From Candidatus Methanoperedens sp. (GTDB taxonomy: Archaea > Halobacteriota > Methanosarcinia > Methanosarcinales > Methanoperedenaceae), in assembly GCA_028717345.1 (NCBI GenBank), contig JAQUNZ010000021.1, forward strand, positions 1-36,527: a DNA stretch of 36,527 nt, written 5' to 3'. The notes under the pieces are model-generated. The model saw only the letters and a program-made list of their open reading frames with translations, did not search any database and was not told the origin of the DNA. Made by a program: the position numbers and the translations under genes. This document shows positions 898 through 28,330 of this stretch, piece after piece; positions within the stretch are counted from its first letter, which is position 1; every line of letters starts with the position of its first letter.

Positions 898-2931
898 ATG
901 ATATACAATGATTTATTTTCAGGACTGATCATCTTTTTTCTTATCGGTGCAATACTCTCCATCGTTTTTAGTAAAAATGACAGGCTTGCCACTTATTGCT
1001 CATTCTTAAGCGCATCAATTGCATCTGTTTTAGGGATAATTTTTTCATTAGCCGTAATATTCGGTGAGAATTTTTTGTTTACAATTTCAAATCACACTTT
1101 TTTGAATTTCGGCTTTTTTGTTGACAGGCTTTCTGCATTCTTTATCCTTGTGATCTCTGTTGCGGTTTTCGCGGTTTCGATATATTCGATAGGATACACC
1201 AGAGAATACTATGGAAAAAAGAACATCGGTTACCTGGGTTTCCTATATAATATTTTCATTCTTTCAATGATCCTCGTTGTCTCGGCGAACAATGCGATAA
1301 TGTTCCTGATCGTGTGGGAATTAATGTCAGTTATATCATTTTTCCTTGTGATCTTTGAACATGAAAAACCCGAAACACGAAAAGCCGGATTTATCTATAT
1401 AGTAATGACGCATGTGGGGACAGGGTTCATTCTCCTTTCATTCCTTATCCTTGCAGGAGCAAGCGGAAGTTTCAGTTTTGAGAGTTTCTCTGCTTCAGGT
1501 TCGGCAATGCCGCCCCTGCTTAAAGATCTTGCATTCCTGTTCGCCCTCATTGGTTTTGGGGCAAAAGCCGGTATTGTGCCGCTGCACATCTGGTTACCAT
1601 ACGCGCACCCTGCCGCACCGAGCAACGTTTCAGCTCTCATGTCTGGAGTAATGATAAAAACTGCAATATATATGTTCATCCGCGTTTTCTTTGATTTCCT
1701 GGGTGCAGATGTCCCCTGGTGGGGATTCCTTGTGTTCGCGCTTGGCGCTGTTTCGGCATTGACCGGCATAATGTATGCAGTTGTTGAACCGGACTTAAAA
1801 AAGATGCTTGCTTTTAGCAGCATAGAGAACATCGGCATAATTCTTCTTGGAATCGGAGCATCCATGATATTCCTTGCATCAGGAAGCCCTGTTCTTTCAG
1901 CCATTGCAGCGATAGCAGCATTATATCACCTGCTCAACCATTCAGTATTCAAGGGACTATTGTTCATGGGCGCTGGCTCCATATTATTCTCAACACACAC
2001 AAAGAACATCGAAGAGCTTGGGGGGCTTATAAAAAAAATGCCTGTAATGGCGCTGCTCTTCCTCATAGGCGTTCTTTCAATTTCAGCGCTTCCTCCATTT
2101 AGCGGATTTGCAAGCGAATGGCTGCTTCTGCAGTCCATGCTATTAAGTTTCAACTCAACTGACTCCATAGTCAGGATCGTTCTCCCTGTTGGCGCAGCAG
2201 CTCTGGCGCTAACTGGCGCTCTTGCTGCTTTTTGCTTCCTGAAAACATTCGGGATAGGATTCCTTGCTCTTCCAAGGAGCGAGCACGCCCAACATGCAAA
2301 AGATCCAAACAAACCAATGCTTATCGGAATGGGGATATTTGCGATATTATCTATCTTGCTCGGGCTTCTGCCAGTCTATGTCGTTACATTCCTTGACAGG
2401 ATCGTTCGGGACTTTGCGGGAGCAAGTGCTTTTGATCAACCTATTTTGCCCGGATCACCTGGCATTTTAACAATACCATCTACCGCGATATCCATATCAA
2501 CTCCAGTTATCCTTGCAGCAATTTTGTTCTTCGTTTTGATACTGCTTGCCATGAGGTTCATAAAGAATCCAGGTGCGCAGAAAGTCTATGAAACCTGGGG
2601 ATGCGGACAGCCCATTTCAACTGCACGGAACGAATATACCGCCTGCGCTTTTTCAAAACCAGTGCAAATGTGGTTCAAGAACATATTCCGTCCTGTAAGG
2701 GAACTGAGGGCTTCATACACTGTTTCCCCGCTCATAAAAGAGTCTTTCAAGTTCGAGGTGCACATTGAACAAATATTCGAACGATACATCTATTCACCGG
2801 TGGTGGATGTAATGCTTGGTAGATCAAGGAACATCAAACGCATTCAGACCGGCAGCATACACGCATATCTCTCTTATATCTTCGGAACAATGGTAATCCT
2901 TATGATGTATATAATAATAGGAGGAAGCTGA
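898..2931 (+). CDS. Hydrogenase-4 component B-like antiporter subunit (NuoL/MrpA family)
   Basis: A ~677-residue polytopic membrane protein of the ion-translocating NuoL/MrpA/HyfB superfamily. Seen: about 14-16 hydrophobic segments; the TM5 glutamate in IVWELMS; the channel lysine in GAKAGIVPLHIWLP followed by the typical AHPAAPSNVSALMSG loop; and the HLLNHSVFKGLLF segment. After the antiporter core there is the HyfB/HycC-type tail with TWGCGQP and AFSKPVQ motifs. E. coli HyfB is ~670 residues, so this is full length. The frame extends upstream to a TTG at 850, but that adds a polar stretch. The ATG at 898, with GAGGT just before it, fits the family N-terminus, although the spacing is short. 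It is the first gene of a seven-gene complex operon and overlaps the next by one base. Likely role: proton or Na+ pumping driven by the peripheral redox arm. Confidence 0.88.
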   Translation: MIYNDLFSGLIIFFLIGAILSIVFSKNDRLATYCSFLSASIASVLGIIFSLAVIFGENFLFTISNHTFLNFGFFVDRLSAFFILVISVAVFAVSIYSIGYTREYYGKKNIGYLGFLYNIFILSMILVVSANNAIMFLIVWELMSVISFFLVIFEHEKPETRKAGFIYIVMTHVGTGFILLSFLILAGASGSFSFESFSASGSAMPPLLKDLAFLFALIGFGAKAGIVPLHIWLPYAHPAAPSNVSALMSGVMIKTAIYMFIRVFFDFLGADVPWWGFLVFALGAVSALTGIMYAVVEPDLKKMLAFSSIENIGIILLGIGASMIFLASGSPVLSAIAAIAALYHLLNHSVFKGLLFMGAGSILFSTHTKNIEELGGLIKKMPVMALLFLIGVLSISALPPFSGFASEWLLLQSMLLSFNSTDSIVRIVLPVGAAALALTGALAAFCFLKTFGIGFLALPRSEHAQHAKDPNKPMLIGMGIFAILSILLGLLPVYVVTFLDRIVRDFAGASAFDQPILPGSPGILTIPSTAISISTPVILAAILFFVLILLAMRFIKNPGAQKVYETWGCGQPISTARNEYTACAFSKPVQMWFKNIFRPVRELRASYTVSPLIKESFKFEVHIEQIFERYIYSPVVDVMLGRSRNIKRIQTGSIHAYLSYIFGTMVILMMYIIIGGS

Positions 2932-3881
2932 TGATCTCACAGATAATCATTTCATTTTTCCAGATAATTATCATACTGGCGCTTGCGCCTCTCCTCAGCG
3001 GAATTATCAAGAAGATAAAGGCGTTCTTCCAGATACGAAAAGGCGCCTCCGTCTTCCAGCCTTACTACGATATAGCAAAACTCCTGCGCAAGGATTCCGT
3101 GGTATCTGAGAACGTATCATGGATATTCCATGCCGCGCCTGTGATATCGTTTGCTGCGGTTTTAACAGCAGGTCTCATAGTTCCCGTGTTCATTTCAGAC
3201 ATGCCATTTTCATTTGCAGGCGACCTGATAGCGGTGATATATCTTTTTGCGCTGGCGCGGTTCTTTACAGCTCTTGCGTCGCTTGATGCAGGCAGTTCTT
3301 TCGGTGGAATGGGGGGAAGCAGGGAGATGTTCGTTGCTTCAATGGTCGAACCTGCCCTCATGCTTTCCATATTTGCTGTTGCCCTCAATGTGGGCTCCAC
3401 AAATCTCAGCCAGATATCACAGATCGTTTCAGCAATGGGGCTTTCCGCGATCTCTCCATACCACCTGCTTGCTTTTGTGGCATTTTTCATAATCGCGATA
3501 GCAGAAACCGGAAGGATACCTGTAGATAATCCTGCCACTCATCTTGAACTCACGATGATCCATGAAGCGATGATCCTTGAATACTCAGGGAAACAACTGG
3601 CAATAGTCGAACTTGGAGCCATGGTAAAGCAATTGCTCGTATTTTCGCTGCTTGCCAACATATTCTTCCCATGGGGTATTGCAAATGACGTGGGTTTTGT
3701 GAACATGGCGATAGCGCTTATTGTTTTTCTGATCAAGATAATTGTACTTGGCGCGCTTATGGCGATAGTTGAGACCTCAACAGCCAAATGGAGATTGTTC
3801 AGGCTGCCTGACCTGTTATCCGTATCACTCATGCTTTCCTTCCTGTCAATTGTCTCATTCATTATCGTAAAAGGAGGATAG
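2931..3881 (+). CDS. Hydrogenase-4 component C-like membrane anchor (NuoH family)
   Basis: 316 residues with eight or so membrane segments, homologous to HyfC/HycD/EchB and complex I NuoH. This subunit joins the peripheral electron-transfer arm to the membrane arm and forms the quinone- or proton-channel-like entry. Visible: the N-terminal IRKGASVFQPYYDIAKLLRK motif typical of the family, the acidic loop AETGRIPVDNPATHLELTMIHE with its conserved Glu/Asp residues, and a C-terminal IVETSTAKWRLFRLP segment. Length matches E. coli HyfC (~320). Its ATG overlaps the TGA of the preceding gene, with a strong AGGAGGA ribosome binding site, indicating translational coupling. Confidence 0.9.
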   Translation: MISQIIISFFQIIIILALAPLLSGIIKKIKAFFQIRKGASVFQPYYDIAKLLRKDSVVSENVSWIFHAAPVISFAAVLTAGLIVPVFISDMPFSFAGDLIAVIYLFALARFFTALASLDAGSSFGGMGGSREMFVASMVEPALMLSIFAVALNVGSTNLSQISQIVSAMGLSAISPYHLLAFVAFFIIAIAETGRIPVDNPATHLELTMIHEAMILEYSGKQLAIVELGAMVKQLLVFSLLANIFFPWGIANDVGFVNMAIALIVFLIKIIVLGALMAIVETSTAKWRLFRLPDLLSVSLMLSFLSIVSFIIVKGG

Positions 3882-3884
3882 ACT

Positions 3885-4544
3885 ATGGAAGAAGTTATTT
3901 TTGGCTCCAATATAATGCAGTTATTTATTGCGCTCATACTTGTTTCTACCTTTATGATCCTTGGCTCAACACGCCTGTATTCATGTGTGAGAGCATTTGG
4001 TATCCAGTCATTCCTGCTTGCATCCGTGGCAGGGGTGGTGGCATTATCCACAGGAAAAATAGACATCTACATCGTCGCCATCCTGACACTTGCAATTAAG
4101 TCAATACTCATACCTTATATTTTCATATACATCATTCGCGAAATAAAAGTAAAAAGAGAGATTGCTCTGTATGTTGGAATATCCCCTTCTCTTATTATTG
4201 GTGGCATCCTTGTTGTTATTTCATATTATCTAATAAGGTCGATAAACGTAATAACAGACCTTTCAAGTTTTGCTCTGTCTGCATCCATGTCCCTTGTTTC
4301 TATCGGGCTTTTCATAATGATAAGCCGTAAGAAAGCCATAATGCAGATGCTTGGCATTCTTATAATGGAGAACGGGCTTTTCCTCGGTGCGATATCCCTG
4401 ACAAACGGTATGCCCCTTTTGGTTGAACTTGGGATATTCTTCGATGTGCTGATCGGAGTACTTATCATGGGTATCCTGATATTCAGGATAAACAAGACAT
4501 TTGAGACGATAGATACCGATATGCTCAAAAATTTAATAGGATGA
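3885..4544 (+). CDS. Hydrogenase-4 component E-like membrane subunit
   Basis: 219 residues with about seven hydrophobic helices, matching HyfE in size (~216) and topology. The C-terminal half resembles a NuoK-like subunit (LLVELGIFFDVLIGVLIMGI, with buried Glu and Asp). HyfE-type subunits occur in Hyf, FHL-2 and Ehr complexes and belong to the membrane arm. The gene starts three bases after the NuoH-like gene with AAAGGAGGA upstream. The assignment rests on length, topology and operon position more than on invariant residues. Confidence 0.82.
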   Translation: MEEVIFGSNIMQLFIALILVSTFMILGSTRLYSCVRAFGIQSFLLASVAGVVALSTGKIDIYIVAILTLAIKSILIPYIFIYIIREIKVKREIALYVGISPSLIIGGILVVISYYLIRSINVITDLSSFALSASMSLVSIGLFIMISRKKAIMQMLGILIMENGLFLGAISLTNGMPLLVELGIFFDVLIGVLIMGILIFRINKTFETIDTDMLKNLIG

Positions 4545-4548
4545 TACC

Positions 4549-6003
4549 ATGATAGAATATCTTCTTCTTGCACCCCTTCTCACCAGCATATTATGCTTTT
4601 TCACACGAACAAAAAAACAGGTCGAGACAATAAGTGTATTGGGTTCGATCATTACACTTCTCCTGGGTCTTTTGCTTGTGGTTGATGTTTACAAGTACGA
4701 AGTCATAGTAACCTGGCAGAACGCCCTGTTCGCTGATGCCTTCAGCGCATACATCGTGCTTATCGTATCAATAGTAGGATTTGTCGCTTCACTGTATTCA
4801 GTAGGTTACATGGGGCATGAGCATAAGCACGGAGTCATTGATGATAAAAAATTGAGATTGTATTATTCCCTGTTCCATATATTCATGTTCACCATGCTTC
4901 TCGTTGGCGTGACGAACAACCTTGGTCTCTGGATAGCGATAGAGATGACCACGCTTGTATCTGCGCTTCTGATGATCCTTTATTCCAGGAAATCATCTAT
5001 TGAAGCCGCATGGAAATATATGATCATCTGTACGGTCGGGATCACGTTCGCCCTTTTTGGCACAATACTGACATATTTTGCAGCTGTAAATATCCTCGGA
5101 GAAACCGGGGATGCCCTTAACTGGACTTCGCTTATCGCAGTTGCAGACCAGTTCGATCCCACGATAATGAAACTTGCATTCATCTTTATCCTTATCGGCT
5201 ACGGGACAAAAGCAGGGCTTGCACCCATGCACACATGGCTTCCAGATGCGCACAGTGAAGCGCCAACTCCGGTGAGCGCGTTATTGTCAGGCGTGCTTCT
5301 GAACTGCGCCATGTATGGCATTATCAGATTCTATACAGTTGCATCAAAATCAACCGGAGAAGCTTTCACAAGCAACCTGCTAATCATTTTCGGGCTGCTG
5401 TCGCTTGGGATAGCGGTTCCGTTCATCCTACTGCAGGAAGACTACAAGCGACTTCTTGCCTACTCAAGTGTAGAGCACATGGGAATAATCGCACTGGGTA
5501 TTGGATTTGGCGGTGTATATGGTATATTCGGCGCGATCCTTCATATGTTCAACCATGCAATGACAAAATCCCTGATGTTCTTTGGAGCAGGAAATATCCT
5601 TCTCAAGCACGACACAAAAGAGATATTCAATGTTAGCGGCGTGGTGAAATCAATGCCAGTCACCGGCGCCATGTTCGTGGTTGGGACGCTTGCTATCACG
5701 GGTTCGCCGCCCTTTTCCATATTCATCAGCGAATTTACCATACTTGCATCAGGTTTTTCTCAGGGTCATATAGTTGCTGCGGTATTGTTCCTTTTGTTCA
5801 TAATAATGATATTTGCGGGATTCTTCAATAATGTCAGCAGAATGGCTTTCGGGAATCCAAAACCAGGTATAGAAAAAGGAGATATGGGCAGGTGGACGCT
5901 TGTGGCGATGGGAATCCTGATGGTATTTATTATCGTGCTTGGGGTTTACATTCCCACGCCTTTCTATGAGATGATAATGAGAGTCGTGGAAATCGTGAGA
6001 TGA
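4549..6003 (+). CDS. Hydrogenase-4 component F-like antiporter subunit (NuoN/NuoM family)
   Basis: 484 residues, 13-14 membrane segments: a second antiporter-like subunit of the complex. Key residues: the TM5 Glu in IAIEMTTLVSALL; the channel Lys in GYGTKAGLAPMHTWLPDAH followed by SEAPTPVSALLSG; and the late segment MFNHAMTKSLMFFGAGN with conserved His and Lys. E. coli HyfF is ~526 residues, so this is slightly short but complete. The operon has HyfB and HyfF homologues but no HyfD, so it encodes two antiporter subunits where E. coli hyf has three. It begins four bases after the HyfE-like stop, with the ribosome binding site (AGGATGA) spanning that stop. Confidence 0.9.
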   Translation: MIEYLLLAPLLTSILCFFTRTKKQVETISVLGSIITLLLGLLLVVDVYKYEVIVTWQNALFADAFSAYIVLIVSIVGFVASLYSVGYMGHEHKHGVIDDKKLRLYYSLFHIFMFTMLLVGVTNNLGLWIAIEMTTLVSALLMILYSRKSSIEAAWKYMIICTVGITFALFGTILTYFAAVNILGETGDALNWTSLIAVADQFDPTIMKLAFIFILIGYGTKAGLAPMHTWLPDAHSEAPTPVSALLSGVLLNCAMYGIIRFYTVASKSTGEAFTSNLLIIFGLLSLGIAVPFILLQEDYKRLLAYSSVEHMGIIALGIGFGGVYGIFGAILHMFNHAMTKSLMFFGAGNILLKHDTKEIFNVSGVVKSMPVTGAMFVVGTLAITGSPPFSIFISEFTILASGFSQGHIVAAVLFLLFIIMIFAGFFNNVSRMAFGNPKPGIEKGDMGRWTLVAMGILMVFIIVLGVYIPTPFYEMIMRVVEIVR

Positions 6004-6007
6004 TGAT

Positions 6008-7573
6008 ATGCCAGAAGAATTAATTGAGACAATAAAAAAAGAATTCAGGAATCTGATTCTTGATGGAACAGTTTCAAATAATGAGACTTATCTCACAGTA
6101 AAGAAGGATGCGGCGGTACGCATCTGCGACTATCTGCATCATACGCTTGATTTCCCTCTTATTTCGATATTTGCAACAGACGATAGAGCAAAAGACGGAT
6201 GCTTCAAGATACATTACGTATTCTCATGCAAAGGGGATGTGTTCATAATAATAAAAATAAAGGTTGAAGAAACCACTCCAAGATTCGCAACACTCACGCA
6301 TAAGATCCCGGCTGCCAACTGGTATGAACGCGAGATACAGGATATGTTCGGGCTTGCACCTGTTGGTCATCCTGACCCCAGGCGACTGATTCATTTCGAA
6401 GACTGGGCGGCAGGGCTTTACCCGTTGCGAAAGGATTTTGACATCAGGACAAAACCTGACCGCGTGAAGGGCGAATATACATATCGAAAAGTTGAGGGCG
6501 AGGGAGTATATGAAATACCAGTGGGACCTGTCCATGCCGGAGTTATTGAGCCGGGACATTTCAGGTTCAGCGTGGCTGGCGAGCCGATACTTAACCTTGA
6601 GATCAGGCATTTCTATACGCACAAAGGCGTGGAAAAATTATTCGAGAGCGTGAGCCTTGATAAAGCGGTGTTCCTTGCAGAAAGGATATCAGGCGATAAC
6701 TCGGCAGCGCATGCAGTTGCGTTTTGCCAGGCTGTTGAGAAGATAGCAGGCATCGATATTCCTCCGAGGGCTAAATACATACGCACCATCCTTCTTGAAC
6801 TTGAAAGGATGTACAACCACATGGGCGACATTGCAGGCATCGCAACCGATGTTGCTTATCCCTTTGGCGCGGCGCATGCTAACTATCTTAAGGAGCGGGT
6901 GATGCAGCTTAATGAAAAAGTAACAGGGAGCAGATTCCTTCGCGGAATGAATGCTATCGGGGGAGTAAGGCGTGATATCGGCGATAAAAAGGATATGATA
7001 TTAAAAGAACTTGATCTGATGCAAAAGGATTTCAAAGAACTTATGGAACTTCTGTTCAATTCGCCATCCGTTGCTGACAGGATAGAAACTACAGGGCGCA
7101 TTACAGGCGAGATAGCAAAAGGACTGCATGTCGTAGGACCCGCAGGACGCGCCTCAGGTATAGACAGCGACGTAAGGCGCGACCATCCGTATGCAGCATA
7201 TTCTGAACTCACATTTAAAGTGCCGGTATTAAAGACCGGGGATGTAAATGCAAGGACACGGGTGCGAGCGGATGAGGTATATGAATCAATGGCTCTAATC
7301 AGGCAGGCTCTGTCCGATCTTCCGCATGGTGAGATCAGGACAGAATTGAAAACCATCCATGACGGCTGCGCACTGGGATATTCAGAAGCGCCCAGAGGTG
7401 AAACATTATACTGGGTCAATATTTCAAACAACAGGATAGAGCGGTGCAAAGTGCGCGATCCTTCGTTCTGCAACTGGCTTTCAATTGAGTATGCTGTGCT
7501 TGATAATATAGTTCCTGACTTCCCGATCATCAATAAAAGCCTGAGTTTATCGTATTCCGGCAATGATATGTAG
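6008..7573 (+). CDS. Hydrogenase-4 component G-like large subunit lacking [NiFe] ligands (fused NuoC-NuoD)
   Basis: 521 residues. An N-terminal NuoC/30-kDa domain (to ~150, with ANWYEREIQDMFGL and GHPDPRR at 103-126) is followed by the NuoD/[NiFe] large-subunit domain. In true group 4 hydrogenases the nickel is held by CxxC pairs in ERxCGxCSxxH and DPCxxC. Here the first reads ERISGDNSAAH (225-235), putting Ser228 and Asn231 at the ligand positions. The second reads RDPSFCNW (483-490), putting Ser486 and Asn489 there; Cys488 is one residue out of register. All four ligands are therefore absent and the C-terminal PSF motif is complex I-like. This matches the Ehr (energy-converting hydrogenase-related) class, so hydrogen chemistry is not expected. 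The redox partner at the equivalent of the quinone pocket is unknown. Confidence 0.9.
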   Translation: MPEELIETIKKEFRNLILDGTVSNNETYLTVKKDAAVRICDYLHHTLDFPLISIFATDDRAKDGCFKIHYVFSCKGDVFIIIKIKVEETTPRFATLTHKIPAANWYEREIQDMFGLAPVGHPDPRRLIHFEDWAAGLYPLRKDFDIRTKPDRVKGEYTYRKVEGEGVYEIPVGPVHAGVIEPGHFRFSVAGEPILNLEIRHFYTHKGVEKLFESVSLDKAVFLAERISGDNSAAHAVAFCQAVEKIAGIDIPPRAKYIRTILLELERMYNHMGDIAGIATDVAYPFGAAHANYLKERVMQLNEKVTGSRFLRGMNAIGGVRRDIGDKKDMILKELDLMQKDFKELMELLFNSPSVADRIETTGRITGEIAKGLHVVGPAGRASGIDSDVRRDHPYAAYSELTFKVPVLKTGDVNARTRVRADEVYESMALIRQALSDLPHGEIRTELKTIHDGCALGYSEAPRGETLYWVNISNNRIERCKVRDPSFCNWLSIEYAVLDNIVPDFPIINKSLSLSYSGNDM

Positions 7574-7581
7574 GTGAAAAA

Positions 7582-7920
7582 ATGTTCGATATCCTTATTA
7601 AAACTCTCAGGACAGGAAGGGTGACATCAAAATACCCCATAAGACAGGACATAGCGCCAGAAGGATTTCGCGGGAAACCTGAACTGCTTCCTGATAAATG
7701 CACTTTTTGCGGTGAATGCGCGAGAGTATGTCCGCCCGGTGTGATATGGCTCACGAAAGAAAAGGGAGAGGAAAAACTCACATTATCATTTTGCGGATGC
7801 ATTTTCTGCGGCATGTGTGAAGAGGTATGCCCTGGCGGAGCTATTAGATTATCACAGGAATACGAACTCGCCTCAAAGACAAAGGATGACCTTCTTACAA
7901 TAATCCGGAGGTCAGTATGA
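7582..7920 (+). CDS. Hydrogenase-4 component H-like 2[4Fe-4S] subunit (NuoI family)
   Basis: 112 residues with two CxxCxxCxxxC motifs: Cys40, 43, 46, 50 (CTFCGECARVCP) and Cys73, 76, 79, 83 (CIFCGMCEEVCP), enough for two [4Fe-4S] clusters. An extra Cys71 precedes the second motif. It wires electrons between the input site and the NuoB-like subunit. It is much shorter than E. coli HyfH (~180), lacking the C-terminal extension, as in many archaeal Ech/Fpo-type homologues. AGGTGA precedes the ATG, and the stop overlaps the next gene by four bases (ATGA). Confidence 0.9.
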   Translation: MFDILIKTLRTGRVTSKYPIRQDIAPEGFRGKPELLPDKCTFCGECARVCPPGVIWLTKEKGEEKLTLSFCGCIFCGMCEEVCPGGAIRLSQEYELASKTKDDLLTIIRRSV

Positions 7921-8405
7921 CGGTGGATGATGAAATGGAAATCATGGGGCAGCGCCTCAACAGGAAGATAAGGGCTCTCTTCGGGCGTTCGCTTTCAATA
8001 CGCGAAGTGGATGCGGGTTCTTGCAATGCCTGCGAGGTAGAGGTAAACGCGCTTGCAAACCCGGTATATGACATGGAACGCTTCGGTATCCATATCGTAG
8101 CATCTCCGCGCCATGCAGATATGCTTCTTGTGACTGGACCTGTCACAAGGAATATGGAACTTGCGCTGCTTAAGACTGCAAATGCGACCCCTGAGCCCAA
8201 ACTTGTCGTAGCCATGGGGTCTTGCGCATGCAACGGCGGCATTTTCGGGGAAACATATGCCAGCGGCGGCGGAGTAGACAGGTTTATGCCTGTGGATGTG
8301 TATATTCCTGGATGTCCCCCCAGACCGCAGGCAGTGATATTCGGTCTGATGGTGGCTGTTGATAAGCTCGAGCAAAAAATAAAGAAATCGGAGGTAAAGG
8401 TATGA
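7917..8405 (+). CDS. Hydrogenase-4 component I-like small subunit (NuoB family)
   Basis: 162 residues of the NuoB/HyfI/EchC family, which carries the terminal N2-type [4Fe-4S] cluster next to the large subunit. The ligand pattern is intact: Cys36 and Cys39 (GSCNACEVE), Cys103 (MGSCACNGG) and Cys133 (PGCPPRP). Electrons can therefore still reach the pocket that has lost nickel in the partner subunit. Strong GGAGGT ribosome binding site; overlaps HyfH-like upstream and the stress protein downstream by four bases each. Confidence 0.92.
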   Translation: MTVDDEMEIMGQRLNRKIRALFGRSLSIREVDAGSCNACEVEVNALANPVYDMERFGIHIVASPRHADMLLVTGPVTRNMELALLKTANATPEPKLVVAMGSCACNGGIFGETYASGGGVDRFMPVDVYIPGCPPRPQAVIFGLMVAVDKLEQKIKKSEVKV

Positions 8406-8836
8406 CAAAATATGAGATACTTGTAGCTACGGACGATTCGGAATATGCAAGAAAAGGAGAAATAGCAGCCATGAAGATAACACAATCCTACAATATCCGT
8501 ATGGCGGCTATCTATATTGCCGTGGGCAGCAAAGACTCGGAACGCGAGGAGCGCATAGCAAAGGGTGAGAAGACACTGAACCGCGTTGTAGAAGAGGGGG
8601 CAAAGATGGGTGTGGAGGTTAACAAACTGCTTGTGGGTGTCAGCATGCAGCGCATGCCTCAGGTAGGCGCTATGGCTGATACGATAGCGCGGGCGATCCT
8701 TGATGCAGCCGAAAAATACCAGGTGCATACCATCGTACTTGGAGGAAAAGGGGAATCTGAGATAAATCCGGAACTTGGCAGCGTGGCTCTGGCAGTGGTG
8801 AAAAAAGCCAGATGTACTGTTCTTGTCGCAAGATAA
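8402..8836 (+). CDS. Universal stress protein (UspA family)
   Basis: 144 residues with the single-domain Usp fold pattern: an N-terminal beta strand ending in VATDDSEYA (conserved Asp11) and a C-terminal nucleotide-binding loop with GGKGE (114-118) and GS (126-127). The loop is close to the G-x2-G-x9-G(S/T) consensus but one residue shorter. ATP binding is therefore possible but not certain. The ATG overlaps the TGA of the NuoB-like gene, with GGAGGTAAAGG upstream, so it is made as the last cistron of the Ehr-like operon. A regulatory or stability role for the complex is inference from this coupling alone. Confidence 0.88.
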   Translation: MTKYEILVATDDSEYARKGEIAAMKITQSYNIRMAAIYIAVGSKDSEREERIAKGEKTLNRVVEEGAKMGVEVNKLLVGVSMQRMPQVGAMADTIARAILDAAEKYQVHTIVLGGKGESEINPELGSVALAVVKKARCTVLVAR

Positions 8837-8884: not shown

Positions 8885-10837
8885 ATGGTAGAAACTACAA
8901 TAGAATCATTACTTGAAGAAAAGCGCGTATTTCATTCTTCTCCTGAATTCAGCAGGAAAGCTTACATAAAAAACCTTGATGAGTACAGGAAAATATATGA
9001 AAGTTCCATTAAAGACCCGGTGTCATTCTGGGCACAGAAGGCTGACCAGATATCGTGGTACAGGAAATGGAAAAATGTCTATTCATGGGATTCTGAAAAG
9101 GCAATATGCAAATGGTTCGAAGGGGGGAAACTGAATGCTTCGTACAACTGCCTTGACAGGCATCTTTCAACAAAAGGCGACAGGGTAGCCATAAAATGGG
9201 AAGGGGACGGCGGAGATACTGCCACATACACATACAGACAGCTATATGATGAAGTATGCAGGTTCGCGAATGTTCTTAAGAAAAGAGGCATCAAAAAAGG
9301 CGACAGGGTAGCGATATATCTTCCGATGATACCGCAGCTTGTGATCTCAATGCTGGCATGTGCCAGGATCGGTGCAATTCACAATGTGGTATTCGCGGGA
9401 TTCAGTGCAGATGCGCTTCGTGAGCGTGTCAATGACAGTGCCTGCAAGATCGTCATTACGGCTGATGCGAGTTTCAGGGCTGGAAAGACAGTTCCCTTGA
9501 AAGAGAATGCCGACAGGGCGCTAGTAGATGGTTCTGTAGAGTATGTTATCGTTTATGACCGCGCGAGAAGCGCGGTCTCGATGAAAAAAGGAAGGGATGT
9601 CTGGTGGCATGAGGAGATGAAGAACGCCTCAGGTGAATGCAAACCAGAGGAGATGGACGCAGAAGACCCGCTTTACATACTTTATACCAGCGGAAGCACG
9701 GGCAAGCCCAAAGGCGTGCTGCATACCACAGGCGGATACCTGCTTTTTGTGCTTCAGACTTTCAAATGGATATTTGATTACCGCGACAGGGATATATTCT
9801 ACTGCACCGCAGACATAGGATGGGTCACGGGTCACAGTTACATCGTTTATGGACCTCTTGCAGCAGGCGCGACAGAAGTGATGTTCGAAGGCGTCCCCAA
9901 TTACCCCAGACCCGACAGGTTCTGGGAGATCATTGAAAAGTACAGAGTAACGATCTTCTATACCGCTCCCACCGCGATCAGGGCGCTTGAAAGAAGCGGC
10001 GACCAGTGGCCAAAAGGAAGAAACCTCTCAAGCCTGAGGCTGCTGGGTACAGTGGGTGAGCCCATAAACCCTGAGGCATGGATGTGGTATTACAACCTGA
10101 TCGGGAACAAGCGCTGCCCGATAGTGGATACCTGGTGGCAGACCGAAACCGGGGGCATCCTGATAACCCCGCTTCCAGGCGCCACGCCGCTCAAACCCGG
10201 CTCTGCCACGCTGCCTTTCCCAGGCATCGAGCCGATGGTGGTGAAACCCGACGGCACAGAGGCTGCGGTTAATGAAGGCGGGCAGCTTGTTATTAAGAAG
10301 CCCTGGCCCGGCATGATGCGCACGGTCTATGGGAACCATGAACGGTTCATAGAGAAGTATTTCACTGCTTTCCCCGGACTTTACCAGACAGGCGACAGCG
10401 CAAGGAAGGATGAGGATGGCTATTACTGGATAATGGGGAGGATAGACGATGTGATAAAGGTCTCAGGTCACAGGCTGGGTACTGCGGAGATAGAGAGCTC
10501 CCTTGTGTCCCATCCTGCTGTTGCAGAGGCTGCGGTGGTCGGGTATCCGCATGATATAAAAGGAGAGGCGATCTATGCTTTTGCCTCGCTTAAAGAAGGT
10601 GTGAAAAAGACCGCAGAACTCAAGGCTGAGCTTATCGAGCACGTCAGGAATACCATTGGTCCCATTGCCAAGCCTGAGAAGCTCCAGTTCGCTGATGCCC
10701 TGCCCAAGACGAGGTCAGGGAAGATCATGAGGAGGATCCTGAGGAAGATAGCGGCAGGGGATATACATGATCTGGGGGATACTACGACGCTGGCTGATCC
10801 GAGTGTGGTGGAGGTTCTGGTTAAGGAGAGGGAGTGA
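8885..10837 (+). CDS. acsA: Acetyl-CoA synthetase, AMP-forming
   Basis: 650 residues, the usual Acs length. It activates acetate with ATP and CoA to acetyl-CoA, AMP and PPi in the cytoplasm. Domains: N-terminal ACS domain (~30-90), the AMP-binding core, and a mobile C-terminal domain. Motifs: the P-loop [11 protein letters not shown] (267-277); [10 protein letters not shown] (415-424), whose double Trp shapes a small acetate-sized acyl pocket; the hinge [13 protein letters not shown] (518-530); and [11 protein letters not shown] (607-617) with catalytic Lys613, the usual lysine-acetylation target. AAAGGTGAG precedes the ATG. It could equally accept propionate at lower rate. In a methane oxidiser it links acetate to the acetyl-CoA pool; the direction in vivo is inference. 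Confidence 0.95.
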
Positions 10838-12859: not shown

Positions 12860-13192
12860 ATGAAAGAGATAAAAAATGCCGAAAGCATTATAAAAAAACA
12901 AATTTCTGAAATATTCCATAATGTAGGCTATTCAGCAAAGAAGATCATTCTTTTTGGCTCCAGAGCCAGAACGGACTTTACCAGTTCCAGCGATTATGAT
13001 ATACTCATAATAACTGAAACTACTTTTGAGATCAAGGAGAAAATGAGCCTGTCCAAAAGGATAAGGGAATATCTGGCAAAATCGGGATTCGATGTGGATG
13101 TACTAATAAAATCAGACGCAGAGGTTCAGGTTTTAAAAGAAAAACCGGGCAGCATTGTAAGGAACGCCATGAAAGAGGGCGTTGCGTTATGA
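12860..13192 (+). CDS. MNT-type nucleotidyltransferase (antitoxin of an MNT/HEPN pair)
   Basis: 110 residues with the minimal nucleotidyltransferase signature: a GSRARTDF turn (33-40) followed by SDYDILI with Asp45 and Asp47 as metal ligands; a third acidic residue is likely in FDVDVLIK. This is the full length expected for the family. In MNT/HEPN systems the MNT protein neutralises the HEPN toxin, in characterised cases by AMPylating it. The stop overlaps the next start by four bases (ATGA), the usual pairing. The ATG at 12860 follows a TATA-like ATATATAAAA at ~12845, implying a short leader. Confidence 0.85.
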   Translation: MKEIKNAESIIKKQISEIFHNVGYSAKKIILFGSRARTDFTSSSDYDILIITETTFEIKEKMSLSKRIREYLAKSGFDVDVLIKSDAEVQVLKEKPGSIVRNAMKEGVAL

Positions 13193-13596
13193 TCGATGAT
13201 TATATCAGGAAATGGATCATCAAAGCAGATAATGATTTTAAGGTCGCAGAGCATGAACTTACCCAACCAGAGAATGAAATGGTTACTGACGCTATATGTT
13301 TTCACTGCCAGCAATCGGTTGAGAAATTGCTGAAAGCATACCTTGCCTCAAAAAATATCGATTTTGGAAAGACCCACAATCTTGAGTTTTTATTAGAACT
13401 CTGCAAGAAACAGGACACTATTTTTGAAAATATATATGTGGGGGATCTATCATTTTACGCAGTTGAGGTCAGATATCCTGATGAGTTTTACATTCCCTCG
13501 GTGTAAGAAGCTAAAGAGTGTTTTAGAATCGCTTCAACTGTCAGGGACACTATGATGAAAGAACTGAATTATACGAGAGATGCGCCTCAGTCATAA
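13189..13596 (+). pseudogene. HEPN-domain protein interrupted by an in-frame TAA
   Basis: The first 105 codons (13189-13506) give a typical HEPN protein of the kind paired with MNT: FHCQQSVEKLLKAYLAS (~42-58), KTHNLEFLLELC, and the RYPDEFYIPSV segment. At 13504-13506 a TAA ends it. The same frame then continues for 29 codons beginning EAKECFRIASTVRD, which is exactly the helix that normally closes this family, before a second stop at 13594-13596. A single G-to-T change (GAA to TAA) would explain this. The truncated protein lacks the last helix. No RxxxxH motif is visible in it. It may be inactive, which would relax the need for the upstream antitoxin. Sequencing error is the main alternative. 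Confidence 0.75.
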
Positions 13597-14157: not shown

Positions 14158-14256
14158 CGTGTGCCTCGAAGCACAAGAGAGATATGTTTAATACAGTAAC
14201 ATTTAATACCAATAAAGGTTATGTATATTATTGACAAAACCATCAAAATAGGCTTT

Positions 14257-17200
14257 ATGAAAACCGATCAACGTTCTTATCTTGGGGAGAAGTTCAAAAA
14301 TCGAGTTACCTTTGATCATGTTGAGCGCAAATTATACGGACACGACATCTCGGCAATACCGGGAATGATAAAGCCGCTTATCGGCAATACTACGCCTGAT
14401 GCAGTCGTCCAGCCGCAGACTGAAGAAGAATTGATAGAGCTCGTTAACTGGGCACAAAAACAGAGGATACCGCTCACTCCCAGAGGAAAAGCAACTTCAG
14501 GCTATGGGGGCGCAATTCCGGTCAAAAAAGGCATTGTTGTTGATTTCTACCGTATGAAGAACGTGCTGGATGTGGATAAAGATAAACTGATAGCGACAGT
14601 GCAGCCCGGCATATCCTGGGAGCAGCTTGACCGCAGGCTTGCGGATGTCGGACTGACGCTGCGGCTCTATCCCACAAGCTACCCGTCGTCCACGGTTGGA
14701 GGGTGGCTGGCGCAGGGAGGCGCCGGGATCGGAAGTTACGAGTACGGCTATTTCGGGGAGAATGTGATCTCTGCAAGGGCAGTGCTGCCAACGGGTGAGG
14801 TCAGGGAATTCACAGATAAAGACCTTGCTCTTGTATCTGAAGCTGAAGGAATAACAGGACTTATCACCCAGGTCACGCTGCGCGTCCAGCCTCTGGAAGA
14901 TGTGGATGTGGCAGCGATAGCGTGCCCTGATGCCCGCGATCTCCAGAAACTTGTTAATACCATTATTGACGCAAAACTTCCCATCTGGTCAATGGTGTTC
15001 ATCAACCCGCGCATGGCAGAGATGAAGAACCGAGCGCCAATGATGGAACATGCAGGTCACCCTGCTGAGGAACGTGTTCTCTTGCCTGCTGCTTATGTGC
15101 TTTCGCTTGCTTTCCGTAAGGTTGACAGCGATAAAATCCATTCATCTCTTCACGAAATGATAAAGTCCTGCGAGGCAGAGATATTGAGCGACCGCATCGC
15201 AAAGCATGAATGGGAACACAGGTTCAAGCTCATGGTCGTAAAAAGGCTCGGTCCGTCTCTTGTCCCTTCCGAGGTGATCATACCGCTATCTGCTCTTGGT
15301 GATGTAATGGGAGATATAGAGTGCAAGGTAGACCAGCCAGTGGTCAAGGAAGGTGTTATTATCAAAAACGGCACCGGGGGAGTCCCTGAAGTAGTCATAC
15401 TTGGTTTCATACCTGCCGACCAGCGCAGGTTCAGTTACAATTTCGTGTTCGGTCTTGTTCTTACAATAATGAAGATCGCAGAAAGCCGTGGCGGTAGACC
15501 TTATTCCACAGGTCTGTACTTCTCAAAGAAAGCTGACAGGATACTTGGCAAAGAAAAGGTCGAAAGGCTTCGCGCTTATAAGTCAGGGATCGATCCGAAA
15601 GGAATAATGAACCCGGGAAAAGTTATCGGGAATGAGCTTCTCGGTATTGCCCTTCATGCCGCCGGGGCGGTTGAGCCACTGATACGCCCGTTCGGTAACT
15701 ACGTTACCACGCGCATCGGGGAGCGCCCTGAAGAAAAGATACGCGACATCCCGGAAGATGTTGCATGGTATGCCTACTCCTGCTCGCAGTGCGGATACTG
15801 CATCGACGAGTGCGACCAGTTCTACGGGCGCGGCTGGGAGAGCCAGAGCCCGCGCGGGAAGTGGTACTGGCTTCGCGAGTACATGGAAGGACGCGTGCAA
15901 TGGGACCAGAAGATGGTTGACACTTTCCTGGTATGCACCACATGCGAGATGTGCGACCGCCGCTGTTCTGCCGCGCTGCCAGTCGAACCTTCATGGATGA
16001 AGATGCGGGGTAAGCTTGTTGACGAGGATAAGCGGATGACCTTCCCGCCTTTTGTGATGATGGGTGAGGCGCTTCGCGCCGAGGGCGATATCTGGGCAGG
16101 GTACAGGAAAGACCGCGCTGCCTGGTTCCCGCAGGACCTGCTGGGCAAACACGGCGCGAATCATAAGTCAAAGAATGTTTACTTTGCAGGCTGCACAGCC
16201 AGTTACGTTGAAAAGGACATAGGCATGGCAAGCGTGCGACTGCTTGATAAGGCAGGAGTGGACTTCACTTATCTTGGAGAGAAAGAGAGCTGCTGCGCAA
16301 CCCCGATGCTCGCGGCGGGAAGATGGGATATTTTCGCGGAGACCATGAAAAAGAACATCGCGGCAGTAAAATCTGCTGGTGCTGATACCGTTATAAGTTC
16401 CTGCCCTGCATGCGACATGATGTGGCGCCAGGTTTACCCTGTGTGGGCAAAGAAACTGGGCGTCGAATACGGCATAGCTGCAAAACATTACACCGAGATA
16501 GTATCTGAAAAACTGAAATCAGGCGAGTTCAGTTTCCCGGACAGAGCTGGAAAGCCTGTTACTGTGACATGGCACGATTCATGCCATATCGGCAGGGCGT
16601 CCGGGGTATATGAACCTCCGCGCGACGTGATAAAAGCCATCCCGAACTTGAAATTCGTGGAAATGAGTCACCATCATGAAAAAGCGCACTGCTGCGGCTC
16701 AGTGTTGACCCTGATAAAGGAGCCGCCTGTGGCGGCGGATGTCGGCAAGATACGGCTTGATGAAGCAGTAGAGGCTGGCGCTGAAAAGGTGCTTGCGCTG
16801 TGCCCATGCTGCCAGTTCCAGCTCAGGGTGAGCAGGGATAAGAAGAATGTGCCTGTGGACGTGGTTGACCTTGCAAGGTTCGCAGCAACGTCTCTGGGAT
16901 ATGAATTCCCGGATCCCAATCCCGATGTTCAGGCTCAGTGGGCTGTATTTGAGGCTTTTGTGGCGCTTATGACACCGCAGGGCTTTGCAGACCTTTTGGG
17001 CACGATGTGGCCAGAGCTTATCGATGCCATGCCATTCGGTATGGGAAAGATGATGCGCGTGATGGGAAAAGTGCCGGGCGCGCTTACGCTCATGAAACCC
17101 ATGTTTCCGGCGCTGTTCCCTGTGCTACTGCCCATGATGATGCCGAAGCTTATGCCAACCATGCTTTCGCGGGTGAAAGCAAGTATCCCGATGCCTGGTT

Positions 17201-17322
17201 ATATGGCAGAGCAGATGCCTGAACTGATGCCAAAGGTAATGGATAACCTGATGCCGCACATGATAAAGGATGTTGTGCCGCTTGTGACTCAGCCCATGAT
17301 AGATTATCTTGGAAAACGGTAA
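14257..17322 (+). CDS. FAD-linked oxidase / Fe-S / CCG-domain fusion protein (D-lactate or glycolate dehydrogenase type)
   Basis: 1,021 residues from the ATG at 14257. The frame extends to 14221, but a TATA-like ATTTAATA at 14201 would put initiation near or past that codon, and the family N-terminus fits 14257. Numbering below is from 14221. FAD-binding (PCMH) domain ~55-225 with PRGKATSGYGG and STVGGWLAQGGAGIGSYEYG; FAD-oxidase C-terminal domain to ~470. Two [4Fe-4S] motifs: Cys521/524/527/531 and Cys572/575/578/582. Two CCG (heterodisulfide reductase HdrD/GlpC-like) domains: Cys658, 691-692, 728, 731 and Cys788, 824-825, 861, 863-864. The last ~105 residues are Met/Pro-rich. It should oxidise a 2-hydroxyacid and pass electrons to Fe-S and CCG sites, possibly to a membrane carrier. 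Substrate is not determinable. It stands alone, convergent with a zinc-ribbon gene. Confidence 0.88.
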   Translation: MKTDQRSYLGEKFKNRVTFDHVERKLYGHDISAIPGMIKPLIGNTTPDAVVQPQTEEELIELVNWAQKQRIPLTPRGKATSGYGGAIPVKKGIVVDFYRMKNVLDVDKDKLIATVQPGISWEQLDRRLADVGLTLRLYPTSYPSSTVGGWLAQGGAGIGSYEYGYFGENVISARAVLPTGEVREFTDKDLALVSEAEGITGLITQVTLRVQPLEDVDVAAIACPDARDLQKLVNTIIDAKLPIWSMVFINPRMAEMKNRAPMMEHAGHPAEERVLLPAAYVLSLAFRKVDSDKIHSSLHEMIKSCEAEILSDRIAKHEWEHRFKLMVVKRLGPSLVPSEVIIPLSALGDVMGDIECKVDQPVVKEGVIIKNGTGGVPEVVILGFIPADQRRFSYNFVFGLVLTIMKIAESRGGRPYSTGLYFSKKADRILGKEKVERLRAYKSGIDPKGIMNPGKVIGNELLGIALHAAGAVEPLIRPFGNYVTTRIGERPEEKIRDIPEDVAWYAYSCSQCGYCIDECDQFYGRGWESQSPRGKWYWLREYMEGRVQWDQKMVDTFLVCTTCEMCDRRCSAALPVEPSWMKMRGKLVDEDKRMTFPPFVMMGEALRAEGDIWAGYRKDRAAWFPQDLLGKHGANHKSKNVYFAGCTASYVEKDIGMASVRLLDKAGVDFTYLGEKESCCATPMLAAGRWDIFAETMKKNIAAVKSAGADTVISSCPACDMMWRQVYPVWAKKLGVEYGIAAKHYTEIVSEKLKSGEFSFPDRAGKPVTVTWHDSCHIGRASGVYEPPRDVIKAIPNLKFVEMSHHHEKAHCCGSVLTLIKEPPVAADVGKIRLDEAVEAGAEKVLALCPCCQFQLRVSRDKKNVPVDVVDLARFAATSLGYEFPDPNPDVQAQWAVFEAFVALMTPQGFADLLGTMWPELIDAMPFGMGKMMRVMGKVPGALTLMKPMFPALFPVLLPMMMPKLMPTMLSRVKASIPMPGYMAEQMPELMPKVMDNLMPHMIKDVVPLVTQPMIDYLGKR

Positions 17323-17328
17323 ACTTCT

Positions 17329-17487
17329 TTATTCATCAAGGCATTTTACATCTTTCGAGTGGCATTTCGGGCAGCGCACGTTTGTGCCTATGCCCTTGAA
17401 TTTCTTGCCGCAGGCATTGCATTCATATTCGTGCATGTCAGTCCCGCTGCTAAGTTCTACGCCGAACGAATCGCCTACACTGCACAT
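17329..17487 (-). CDS. Small zinc-ribbon protein (52 residues)
   Basis: Minus-strand gene with ATG at 17485-17487 and TAA at 17329-17331. The product has CNACGKKF (Cys23, Cys26) and CPKCHSKDVKC (Cys39, Cys42, plus Cys49), a two-knuckle zinc ribbon of rubredoxin/FmdB type. The start is well supported by AAAGGAGGTG a few bases upstream on the minus strand. It lies tail to tail with the FAD/CCG oxidoreductase, leaving six bases between the stops. Function unknown; proteins like this are often regulators or metal carriers. Confidence 0.75.
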   Translation of the reverse strand: MCSVGDSFGVELSSGTDMHEYECNACGKKFKGIGTNVRCPKCHSKDVKCLDE

Positions 17488-17635
17488 AGCACCTCCTTTT
17501 TCGTTATATTACAGGTGTTCCCAAATTATAATCATTTTTCATGCTATTTCTACTTTTTCCAGACGATGTTATCGCAGGGATAGAAACTTGACTTCGCCAG
17601 TTAGCCTATAAAAGGGAAGCTACATTTCAGAAGTT

Positions 17636-17962
17636 TTGGTGAAAACTTTGCGTGAAAATGTAACATTCCCTATAGGCAATATTGTAATGCTCGACAGAAT
17701 TCAAAAAGATTATGGTTACTTCGATTTTATGTTTGGTAATCTGAATCTTGAATCAGTTGCGAAACGGTTCAAGGAAGTTGTTCTTGAAACCAGGATAATA
17801 AAACTCCCTTCGGGTGAACCTGCTAAATTGAGGATCGAGATCGTCGACGGGAGTTTTGCGGATATATGGCTTTCAGCTTCTGGTAAATATTCATATCATT
17901 ACGCAAATGCTTTCATTTTCTGCATTACTAAATCATTATCAAAAAAAGCCATGCAGGAATGA
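17636..17962 (+). pseudogene. Truncated small toxin-like ORF (TumE/DUF6516-type pattern)
   Basis: Up to 108 codons from TTG 17636 (GTG 17639 or an internal ATG are alternatives). The segment RIEIVDGSFADIWLSASGKYSYHYA resembles the DGSxxDIW...YxYHW core of small TumE-like toxins. In that family the next element is a 'RxDNxPH' motif, but here the frame turns into unrelated sequence (AFIFCITKSLSKK) that overlaps the last 35 bases of the convergent ATPase gene. I read it as a gene whose 3' end was lost. The family assignment is by pattern memory only and could be wrong. Confidence 0.4.
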
Positions 17963-19271
17963 AAATAATATATCCATCATCTCGCAGGAGGTCCTTTGTT
18001 ATTACAAGCCCGCGGGTCTTAAACTCTTCGCAGAAATTTAATAATCCCTTTATATCCTTTTTCCCAATATTATCAGAATATTTGACTTCTATCGGAATTA
18101 CCTCTTTTTTCAAAGTTATCACTATATCGACTTCATTCCGAGTCCTGTCAAGCCAGTAAAATATCCTGGGAAATAACTCTCGTTTTTTCAGGGAAAGCAT
18201 GTGGAAAAAAACAATGTTCTCGATGATCTTTGTTTTTTCAAGGTCATCTATTTCCTTCAAAAGAAGGGAATTCCGAAGCCCGCAGTCCACAAAATACAAT
18301 TTTTTTTCCTTTCTTGTGGAAATTACCTGTTTTTTTGAGTACAGATAAGCGGTATATATCAAAAAGCACTCCTCAAGATATGAAATATAATTCTTGACCG
18401 TGTCTACCTTTATATTGAGAATATCGGCAAATGCAGAATAGCTTATTCTCTGGGACATATGATCTGAAAGAAGGTCTGCCAGGTCGCTCAAAATTCTCGG
18501 TTCTTTTATGTCCTTCAGGTCAAGGATATCCCTGTTTATCGTAAGGGTTTTATACAGTTTTAAGACTTCGTAAGCCCTCTCAATATCTTTTATGTCAAAA
18601 ACTTCGGGAAAACCTCCTTTTAAGATATATTCATCAAGCTTGATGATCAGGTCATTTTTTTCAAGTAACAATTCATCATGCACTCTCTTGATGCCGCTGA
18701 AATTTCCAAAATCTGCGCTCATTGCCCTGCCTGTGAACTCAGAAAATTTTAGCGGCAGTATTAAATGAAAATTTATCCGTCCGAGCAGGCTTTCACCGCC
18801 GCCTTTTAAGATTCTCAAAGAAGATGAGCCTGAGACTATGAATTTTATTTTTAACCCCATGTCATGCCAGTATTTTATGATATTACTCCAGTCATCAAGC
18901 TTATGGATTTCATCCAGAAAAATATATGTTTTTTCGGACAATATGTCAATGGGCTCCCTGATCATGGTGTTTGAGAAATCCCTGATAGCTTCATCGAAAT
19001 TATGCTCTAAATTAAGGCGTATCTTGGGATTATCGAATGATATGAACAATATATTTCTTTCACTCACGCCCTTTTTGAGCAGATGTCCTATAAGCTCATA
19101 CATGAGCGTTGTTTTGCCTGATCTCCTGGGCCCTAAAAGGCAGGTGATTTTCTTTTCTTCAAGTTCGTCTTTGAGTGAATCGAATTCAGAGCGCCTGATA
19201 TTGCCCAGTTTTGACTCACTGACGCGTTTAGTTTTCCACCAGGGGTTCTGGATTATTATCTCTTCCAGCAT
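17928..19271 (-). CDS. AAA ATPase of the DUF4143 family
   Basis: 447 residues. N-terminal P-loop domain (AAA_14 type): Walker A GPRRSGKTT (47-55), Walker B YIFLDEIHKL (116-125), arginine-rich sensor region SGSSSLRILKGG. A winged-helix segment follows, then a C-terminal DUF4143 domain with WLDRTRNEVDIVI and IPIEVKY, the D...E-x-K pattern of PD-(D/E)XK nuclease folds. This is a very common archaeal family, often multi-copy and linked to mobile regions, with no settled function. It is flanked by a truncated toxin-like gene and a 409-base empty stretch. Start ATG 19269-19271; no strong ribosome binding site. Confidence 0.88.
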   Translation of the reverse strand: MLEEIIIQNPWWKTKRVSESKLGNIRRSEFDSLKDELEEKKITCLLGPRRSGKTTLMYELIGHLLKKGVSERNILFISFDNPKIRLNLEHNFDEAIRDFSNTMIREPIDILSEKTYIFLDEIHKLDDWSNIIKYWHDMGLKIKFIVSGSSSLRILKGGGESLLGRINFHLILPLKFSEFTGRAMSADFGNFSGIKRVHDELLLEKNDLIIKLDEYILKGGFPEVFDIKDIERAYEVLKLYKTLTINRDILDLKDIKEPRILSDLADLLSDHMSQRISYSAFADILNIKVDTVKNYISYLEECFLIYTAYLYSKKQVISTRKEKKLYFVDCGLRNSLLLKEIDDLEKTKIIENIVFFHMLSLKKRELFPRIFYWLDRTRNEVDIVITLKKEVIPIEVKYSDNIGKKDIKGLLNFCEEFKTRGLVITKDLLRDDGYIIFIPAWLFLIMI

Positions 19272-19680
19272 AATTCCAATATAGAGTATATGTTATAGAT
19301 ATAACTTTCCATTATAAAGTAAATGTTCATCGCTTTTTATCGTACTTCCTCTGCGCCGCCCATAGCGCAGGCACATCCTTGCTCCTCACATCGCTCGTGA
19401 GCCTCTTCCTTATCCTCACCAGCGCCGGCGTATTTATCGCAACCCCTGATATTATTGCCCTGCCCCTTCGCAAGCGAAGGAAGCTCTGAAATCAGCTCCC
19501 TGCTCGCGCTACATTCAAGGTAAAGAATTACTTGAGAAGAACAGGTCATGCAAAATATGGGTATCGAAAATTTCAGTATCAACAAGGTGTAATTATCCCC
19601 ACTTTTATTGTAACACTTTCGCCCCGCGCATACCACACTCTTTTTATCCCATACAAACAATACCCGTACAGGAAGGTCTA
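19272..19680. other. Intergenic stretch without a recognisable gene
   Basis: 409 bases between the divergent ATPase and sbcD genes. Near the ATPase it is AT-rich and should hold that gene's promoter. The middle (19340-19500) is GC-rich, with an AGCGCCGGCG core resembling the other GC islands and a perfect 7-base inverted repeat (CCTTCGC/GCGAAGG) at 19465-19480. GGAAGGTC at 19672-19679 serves as the sbcD ribosome binding site. A minus-strand frame of 139 codons crosses it but has implausible composition. Confidence 0.5.
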
Positions 19681-28081: not shown

Positions 28082-28330
28082 ATGCATATTACAGACAGTC
28101 CTGATACAAAAGAAATTCTACTGCATAAAACATTAGATTATTTAAGTCGCCTACCTCAGGATAAAGTTATTGAAGTTGCGGAATTCGTTGAATTTCTATA
28201 TCAAAAACATGAAGAGTATATTCTGAAAAAAGGAATTCATAAGATGGTATCCAATTCAAAATCTTTTGAGTTTTTAAAAGAAGAAGATGAATTATATACC
28301 TTAGATGATTTGAAAGTGCGGTTCAAATGA
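28082..28330 (+). CDS. DUF2281-type antitoxin
   Basis: 82 residues. The N-terminal half (LLHKTLDYLSRLPQDKVIEV then AEFVEFLYQKHE) matches the DUF2281/antitoxin pattern of small helical proteins found before MazF or PIN toxins. The C-terminal half carries a flexible acidic tail (EFLKEEDELYTLDDLK), as expected for toxin wrapping. The last codons overlap the toxin start by four bases (ATGA). It is the intact parent of the truncated copy at 29966. An AT-rich promoter region precedes it. Confidence 0.8.
   Translation: MHITDSPDTKEILLHKTLDYLSRLPQDKVIEVAEFVEFLYQKHEEYILKKGIHKMVSNSKSFEFLKEEDELYTLDDLKVRFK

Follow-up and report, generated by a model that had tools for sequence, protein, structure and literature searches.

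What does a membrane complex built like hydrogenase-4 do when its large subunit holds none of the cysteines that would carry a [NiFe] centre? The question is raised by an operon near the start of a 36,527-nucleotide stretch of Candidatus Methanoperedens DNA (contig JAQUNZ010000021.1, positions 1 to 36,527; hereafter, the window), which a first-pass annotation, made from the DNA letters, had described as a complete Ehr-type complex. With about even confidence, we read it as an Ehr complex of Methanosarcinales type, that is, an ion-translocating, ferredoxin-fed, non-hydrogenase relative of hydrogenase-4 and formate hydrogenlyase that would deliver its electrons to an acceptor other than protons.

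The loss of the ligands could be read from alignments. Where HycE has RVCGIC, the window's large subunit has RISGDN, so that S228 and N231 stand in for the first cysteine pair, as had been annotated. The second pair had been assigned to S486 and N489, wrongly: DPSFCN, the motif that holds these residues, aligns with AATYAN of HycE and EPTFPN of MbhL, outside the second CxxC of either protein, which rules the two out as ligand positions. The true positions, found by alignment to HycE and MbhL, are S515 and G518, within SLSYSGND at the extreme C-terminus, opposite DPCYSCTD of HycE. The aligned sites are encoded as follows:

6689..6700, + strand: codons S228-G229-D230-N231, replacing the first CxxC
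7550..7561, + strand: codons S515-Y516-S517-G518, replacing the second CxxC

There is no cysteine at any of the four positions, so the protein lacks both of the CxxC motifs that mark a group 4 [NiFe] hydrogenase (Hyf/Ech). Conservation was counted over 110 Ehr large subunits that lack cysteine ligands, none of which carries a cysteine at even one of these positions. The replacing residues are themselves well kept: S228 occurs in 108 and D230 in 103 of the 110, S515 in each of the 108 rows long enough to include it and G518 in 107, and E181, G229, D388 and R390 are invariant. Alignment to HycE revealed no cleavable C-terminal extension; the window protein ends at the residue opposite the Arg of DPCYSCTDR, which we take to be the HycE cleavage site, and HycE runs on.

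The genome agrees with the alignment. Neither HypD nor another [NiFe] large subunit was found in this metagenome-assembled genome (MAG; 95.9% complete), and the mark of [NiFe] maturation is thus lacking from it. Across the 31 genomes of the genus, HypD occurs in nine, the same nine in which a real [NiFe] large subunit is present, and 21 of the 29 Ehr-bearing genomes, including the window's MAG, have neither. The missing cysteines together with the missing HypD rule out an ordinary hydrogenase, in line with the annotated claim that H2 is not used in the usual way. A hydrogenase with unusual ligands could appeal to the architecture and to the proton-path glutamate (E181), both as in group 4 hydrogenases; given four replaced cysteines, no C-terminal extension and no HypD, we consider it next to impossible.

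That the complex belongs to Ehr was borne out by tree position, subunit set and ligand loss together. In our trees, from which MbxL was left out, the large subunit fell within the Ehr clade, apart from HyfG/HycE, MbhL and NuoCD/FpoD (support 100/99 against HyfG), and hence outside both the active [NiFe] hydrogenases and complex I. The set of two antiporter-like subunits with NuoH-like, HyfE-like and NuoB-like proteins is that of Ehr. The complexes of Geobacter, Nitrospira, ammonia-oxidising archaea, Methylacidiphilum and Methanomassiliicoccales share these membrane subunits and the ligand-less large subunit, and lie in the same clade. An AlphaFold2 model of the large subunit (mean predicted local distance difference test score, pLDDT, of 92.1; below 50 in the loop before E181, residues 174–180) matched HycE best (7z0s_E; template modelling score 0.96, 2.0 Å), with NuoCD next.

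The operon comprises eight genes in the same direction over positions 898–8836, separated by −4 to +8 nucleotides, in the order hyfB-hyfC-hyfE-hyfF-L-I-B, followed by a gene for a universal stress protein (usp):

898..2931, + strand: hyfB, NuoL/MrpA-type antiporter-like subunit, 677 aa (NCBIfam NF005086, 706.7 bits, above cut-off)
2931..3881, + strand: hyfC, NuoH-like subunit (PF00146, E = 1.1e-44)
3885..4544, + strand: hyfE-like membrane subunit (NF008556, E = 3.1e-26)
4549..6003, + strand: hyfF, second antiporter-like subunit (NF005044, E = 3.1e-171)
6008..7573, + strand: large subunit, a NuoC-NuoD fusion, 521 aa (PF00329, PF00346)
7582..7920, + strand: NuoI/HyfH-like subunit with two [4Fe-4S] clusters (dicluster ferredoxin), 112 aa (profile matches, Cys ligands)
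7917..8405, + strand: NuoB/HyfI-like small subunit (ligands C36, C39, C103 and C133 of cluster N2)
8402..8836, + strand: usp, universal stress protein (PF00582, E = 2.8e-10), overlapping the NuoB-like gene by 4 nucleotides

The open reading frame of hyfB opens upstream of 898, at a TTG at 850. Collinearity on the + strand and the profile matches upheld the boundaries 898–8405 and all seven subunit assignments of the annotation. Its description of the operon as complete held for these seven genes and fell short in extent, since usp is an eighth member in every relative with a contig long enough to show it. With Hyf/Hyc, the operon shares the fold and the gene order B-C-E-F-G-H-I, and it differs from them in having no [NiFe] ligands, no C-terminal extension and no HyfA, HyfD or HyfJ; relative to the six-gene ehrABCDLS of Methylacidiphilum (PMC6688271), it adds the NuoI-like subunit and usp. 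In comparisons of the window with two close relatives, the ratio of nonsynonymous to synonymous substitution rates (dN/dS) was 0.04–0.14 for every gene, so that the operon, as judged from its sequence, is under strong purifying selection. These ratios and the conserved replacement motifs rule out a decaying pseudogene: the complex is real, complete and conserved.

It is also widespread in the lineage. The large subunit was recovered at 73–87% identity in 29 of the 31 Methanoperedens genomes (split over two contigs in one) and not found in the other two (G023 and G024). It is 77% identical in a sister genus of the same family, 71–72% in two other genomes of the order and 65% in a Methanosarcinaceae MAG, and throughout Methanosarcinales the order hyfB-C-E-F-L-I-B-usp is constant wherever contigs are long enough.

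What the complex might do in place of hydrogen turnover is suggested by what it has retained. As annotated, the iron–sulfur ligands are intact, eight in the NuoI-like subunit (C40/43/46/50 and C73/76/79/83) and the four N2 ligands in the NuoB-like one. Both antiporter subunits retain the Glu/Lys path of NuoL/NuoM, with E141, K223, K254 and E407 in HyfB and E132 and K221 in HyfF. The complete cysteine sets and the preserved path support electron entry through NuoI, transfer to N2, and ion movement. Moreover, most bacterial and nitrososphaeral Ehr complexes lack an intact NuoI-like ferredoxin part, whereas those of Methanosarcinales keep it and add usp; the persistence of the NuoI and N2 ligands throughout Methanosarcinales, despite their loss in many other Ehr, suggests that they are used. 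No Methanosarcinales locus lacks the NuoI-like part, which in two of them is fused to NuoB. Some bacterial Ehr relatives have a ferredoxin part as well, so we do not treat this additional subunit as a reason to place the complex outside Ehr. The fused form was seen as one protein in two Methanoperedens genomes (L122 and L129), and similar fusions occur in Bacillota and a Methanomassiliicoccales MAG (L044, L048, L058, L076, L078 and L103); in Nitrospira moscoviensis (L063), just an N-terminal remnant of the NuoI part is left.

From these features, we infer the following sequence of events. Reduced ferredoxin, or another soluble low-potential donor, would hand electrons to the NuoI-like subunit, and N2 of the NuoB-like subunit would receive them next. 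They would then reduce an acceptor, one different from protons, in or close to the altered large-subunit pocket, and a conformational change at the junction of the large subunit, NuoB and NuoH would power movement of H+ or Na+ via HyfB and HyfF. The complex might also run in reverse, using the ion gradient to reduce ferredoxin, and Usp may sense the energy status and regulate it. It is plausible that ferredoxin oxidation would be tied to the pumping of ions in this way. A ferredoxin-linked pump would have a place in this lineage, since there is no Rnf and the fate of ferredoxin is unclear (PMC4683180).

The acceptor is probably not a quinone bound in the manner of complex I. Like complex I and Fpo, the window's complex has the NuoD fold, an N2 cluster and antiporter-like subunits, but its operon has no NuoEFG/FpoF module, and Ile180 and Gly229 (110 of 110 Ehr) occupy the positions where NuoCD and the FpoD of the same genome bear His and Tyr, which are presumably the ligands of the quinone head group in complex I. 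That these two substitutions are invariant argues against quinone binding of the complex I type. A ferredoxin:menaquinone (or methanophenazine) oxidoreductase with a site of that type would account for the NuoD/NuoB/NuoH architecture and the second-best fold match to NuoCD, and Methanoperedens is thought to use menaquinone (PMC7327174); in view of the Ile/Gly pair, we find it unlikely. No NADH or F420H2 input module (NuoEFG, FpoF) was found in the window, and none is conserved close to the operon in relatives; an FqoF encoded elsewhere may be shared as input module.

The MBS/Mbx complex of Pyrococcus is likewise a ligand-less relative of a group 4 hydrogenase with an ion-pumping arm, and MBS, a solved relative with two antiporter subunits, is reported to reduce sulfane sulfur (PMC7684303). 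As has been proposed for MBS/Mbx, the Ehr complex might reduce a small sulfur compound or disulfide at or near N2. The loop around the first two N2 cysteines differs, however, with the ordinary CxxC spacing of hydrogenases in Ehr as opposed to the CTGCGG stretch of MBS, and the large subunit is more distant, the sequence match to MbxL being much weaker than that to HycE. We therefore regard a sulfur reductase as very unlikely.

Comparison across the family revealed a graded loss of redox centres, which we order in four stages (a–d). At stage a, loci of Thermincola, Clostridiales and Peptococcaceae and two acidobacterial loci retain all four cysteines. Their large subunits share the NKS motif of Ehr and end without an extension. 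Thermincola and Clostridiales have an intact ferredoxin part, fused to NuoB; in the remaining three loci, this fused part is altered or degenerate. These large subunits (L044, L058, L113, L096 and L100), with motifs RICGxC...ELCYxCxDR, are probable hydrogenase sisters of Ehr. Stage b (Methanosarcinales, Methanomassiliicoccales and some Bacillota) lacks the [NiFe] ligands and retains the ferredoxin part and N2; at stage c (most other bacteria and Nitrososphaerota), the ferredoxin part is lost or degraded and N2 remains. A quick tree with the motif columns masked implied three cysteine changes; holding the five four-cysteine rows together gave a better likelihood, and a careful tree suggested a single loss.

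At stage d, ten loci (L092, L093, L095, L101 and L108; L071, L074, L075, L077 and L111) have no ferredoxin part and have had the N2 ligands replaced too, all four in six loci and three in four, mostly by Asp, Asn or Thr. They comprise two Methanoregula, a Methanosarcina MAG, Altiarchaeales and Dehalococcoidales, and a further group of Levybacteria, Daviesbacteria, Thermoleophilia and two other bacteria. The careful tree places two changes for this loss, and a single clade is compatible with the data (approximately unbiased test, p = 0.52). The ion-path residues persist (with Glu-to-Lys at one HyfF position in four loci), as does the pocket motif SGD / NKSxxxSYxGxD, so that these complexes apparently contain few or no redox centres. 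The neighbours of these N2-less loci showed no common theme. Behind the first operon of the altiarchaeal locus L101 lies a second Ehr-like hyfB-C-E-F set (14865–19570), and beside the Ehr operon of a Methanomassiliicoccus (L040) there is, downstream, a further complex I/Ech-like set. A limited search of the literature yielded no description of this graded series, which is new here.

The last stage bears on the whole interpretation. Pocket and ion path are both kept in complexes whose N2 ligands are replaced, so electron transfer may not be what the pocket is for. In addition, the "Ech" of strain BLZ1, probably this complex (see below), was weakly transcribed during nitrate-dependent methane oxidation (52–80 reads per kilobase per million, RPKM; PMC4683180), and no conserved partner oxidoreductase was found near the operon in relatives. 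These three points weigh against a ferredoxin-fed pump. One rival is a redox-independent ion transporter, serving pH or Na+ homeostasis in the manner of Mrp and gated by a pocket ligand and/or Usp, in which the iron–sulfur clusters would be regulatory or inherited. The ten N2-altered, ferredoxin-less loci with their retained path and pocket fit this proposal, as do the fixed place of usp in the operon and the pH-homeostasis role suggested for the Methylacidiphilum Ehr (PMC6688271). On the other hand, twelve iron–sulfur ligands (eight in NuoI, four in NuoB) preserved in Methanosarcinales at low dN/dS would be hard to explain without electron flow, and we rate the transporter as a possibility on the doubtful side. 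A broader version, in which Ehr is at root not an electron-transfer system, the Ser/Asp/Tyr pocket binds a non-redox ligand that drives or gates ion transport, and the family leads from hydrogenase to cofactor-free transporter, with Methanoperedens as an intermediate that kept its Fe-S chain and added Usp as a regulator, seems to us decidedly unlikely.

The surroundings of the operon also bear on a formate dehydrogenase–Ehr complex, as proposed for Margulisbacteria and relatives (PMC6349859). Geobacter Ehr was more abundant on formate (PMC7894505); in the window, however, there is no gene for formate dehydrogenase, NuoE or NuoF, and the absence of a conserved partner in relatives counts here as well, so that we consider participation in such a complex highly improbable.

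The gene that follows the operon, 48 nucleotides past the end of usp, is:

8885..10837, + strand: acs, AMP-forming acetyl-CoA synthetase (TIGR02188, 1019 bits, above cut-off)

The annotation had placed the complex next to acs and mcr, which is correct for acs; there is no mcr in the window. Immediate adjacency of acs was seen in six loci only, from few species; a functional link is thus weak, and acs is probably not part of the complex. The genes for the alpha and beta subunits of methyl-coenzyme M reductase (MCR; mcrA and mcrB) were not found in this MAG, and most genomes of the genus have both; an assembly gap is the likeliest reason, with real loss as the alternative. Two Methanoperedens MAGs at least 95% complete gave this result (G000, which is this MAG, and G001).

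Elsewhere in the window, positions 14221–17322 encode a 1033-aa fusion protein, a GlcD-like FAD oxidase joined to a 4Fe-4S domain and two CCG (HdrD/GlcF-like) domains, which may be a dehydrogenase that supplies the respiratory chain. Positions 19681–27634 hold in tandem an SbcD-like nuclease, an SbcC/Rad50-like ATPase and a UvrD helicase with a PD-(D/E)XK nuclease domain, which would form an archaeal AddAB/SbcCD-like repair or defence block. A nucleotidyltransferase–HEPN pair (MNT-HEPN type toxin–antitoxin) lies within 12860–13506, and at 28082–28659 a gene for a MazF/PemK-like toxin is preceded by a small open reading frame.

Part of this picture had been published. McGlynn (2017) had pointed out that neither CxxC motif is present in the "Ech" of "Ca. 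M. nitroreducens" BLZ1, for which a role in ferredoxin oxidation was considered possible (PMC5371075). An Ech lacking EchD was reported for Methanoperedens by Arshad (2015; PMC4683180) and in the BLZ2 announcement (PMC5690323), both of which name and model it as a hydrogenase, and Chadwick (2022) again gave Ech as present in ANME-2d. This BLZ1/BLZ2 "Ech" is probably the present complex, because no canonical Ech large subunit, nor any other of Ech type, was found among the 31 genomes and the EchD-like NuoC is fused to the large subunit; the fusion fits the published lack of a separate EchD. For Nitrospira, ammonia-oxidising archaea, M. tuberculosis and Methanomassiliicoccales, the literature terms the function of Ehr unknown. 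The first-pass annotation had held that the role of the complex in this lineage was not established; the ligand-less "Ech" itself was already on record (PMC5371075). The central claim of the annotation therefore confirms published work, which is here extended to the genus. Our additions are the reassignment of the second ligand pair, the survey across the genus with its HypD pattern, the constancy of usp, the absence of the quinone ligands and the graded series.

Several papers invoke Ech for the re-oxidation of ferredoxin in Methanoperedens. Should this Ehr, which is present in nearly every species and is not a hydrogenase, be the sole "Ech" of the genus, then models in which it makes H2 would have to be corrected, and an ion pump linked to ferredoxin would become a direct candidate for that re-oxidation. 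For the family at large, the graded series amounts to a natural experiment on the requirements for ion movement in complex I-like machines.

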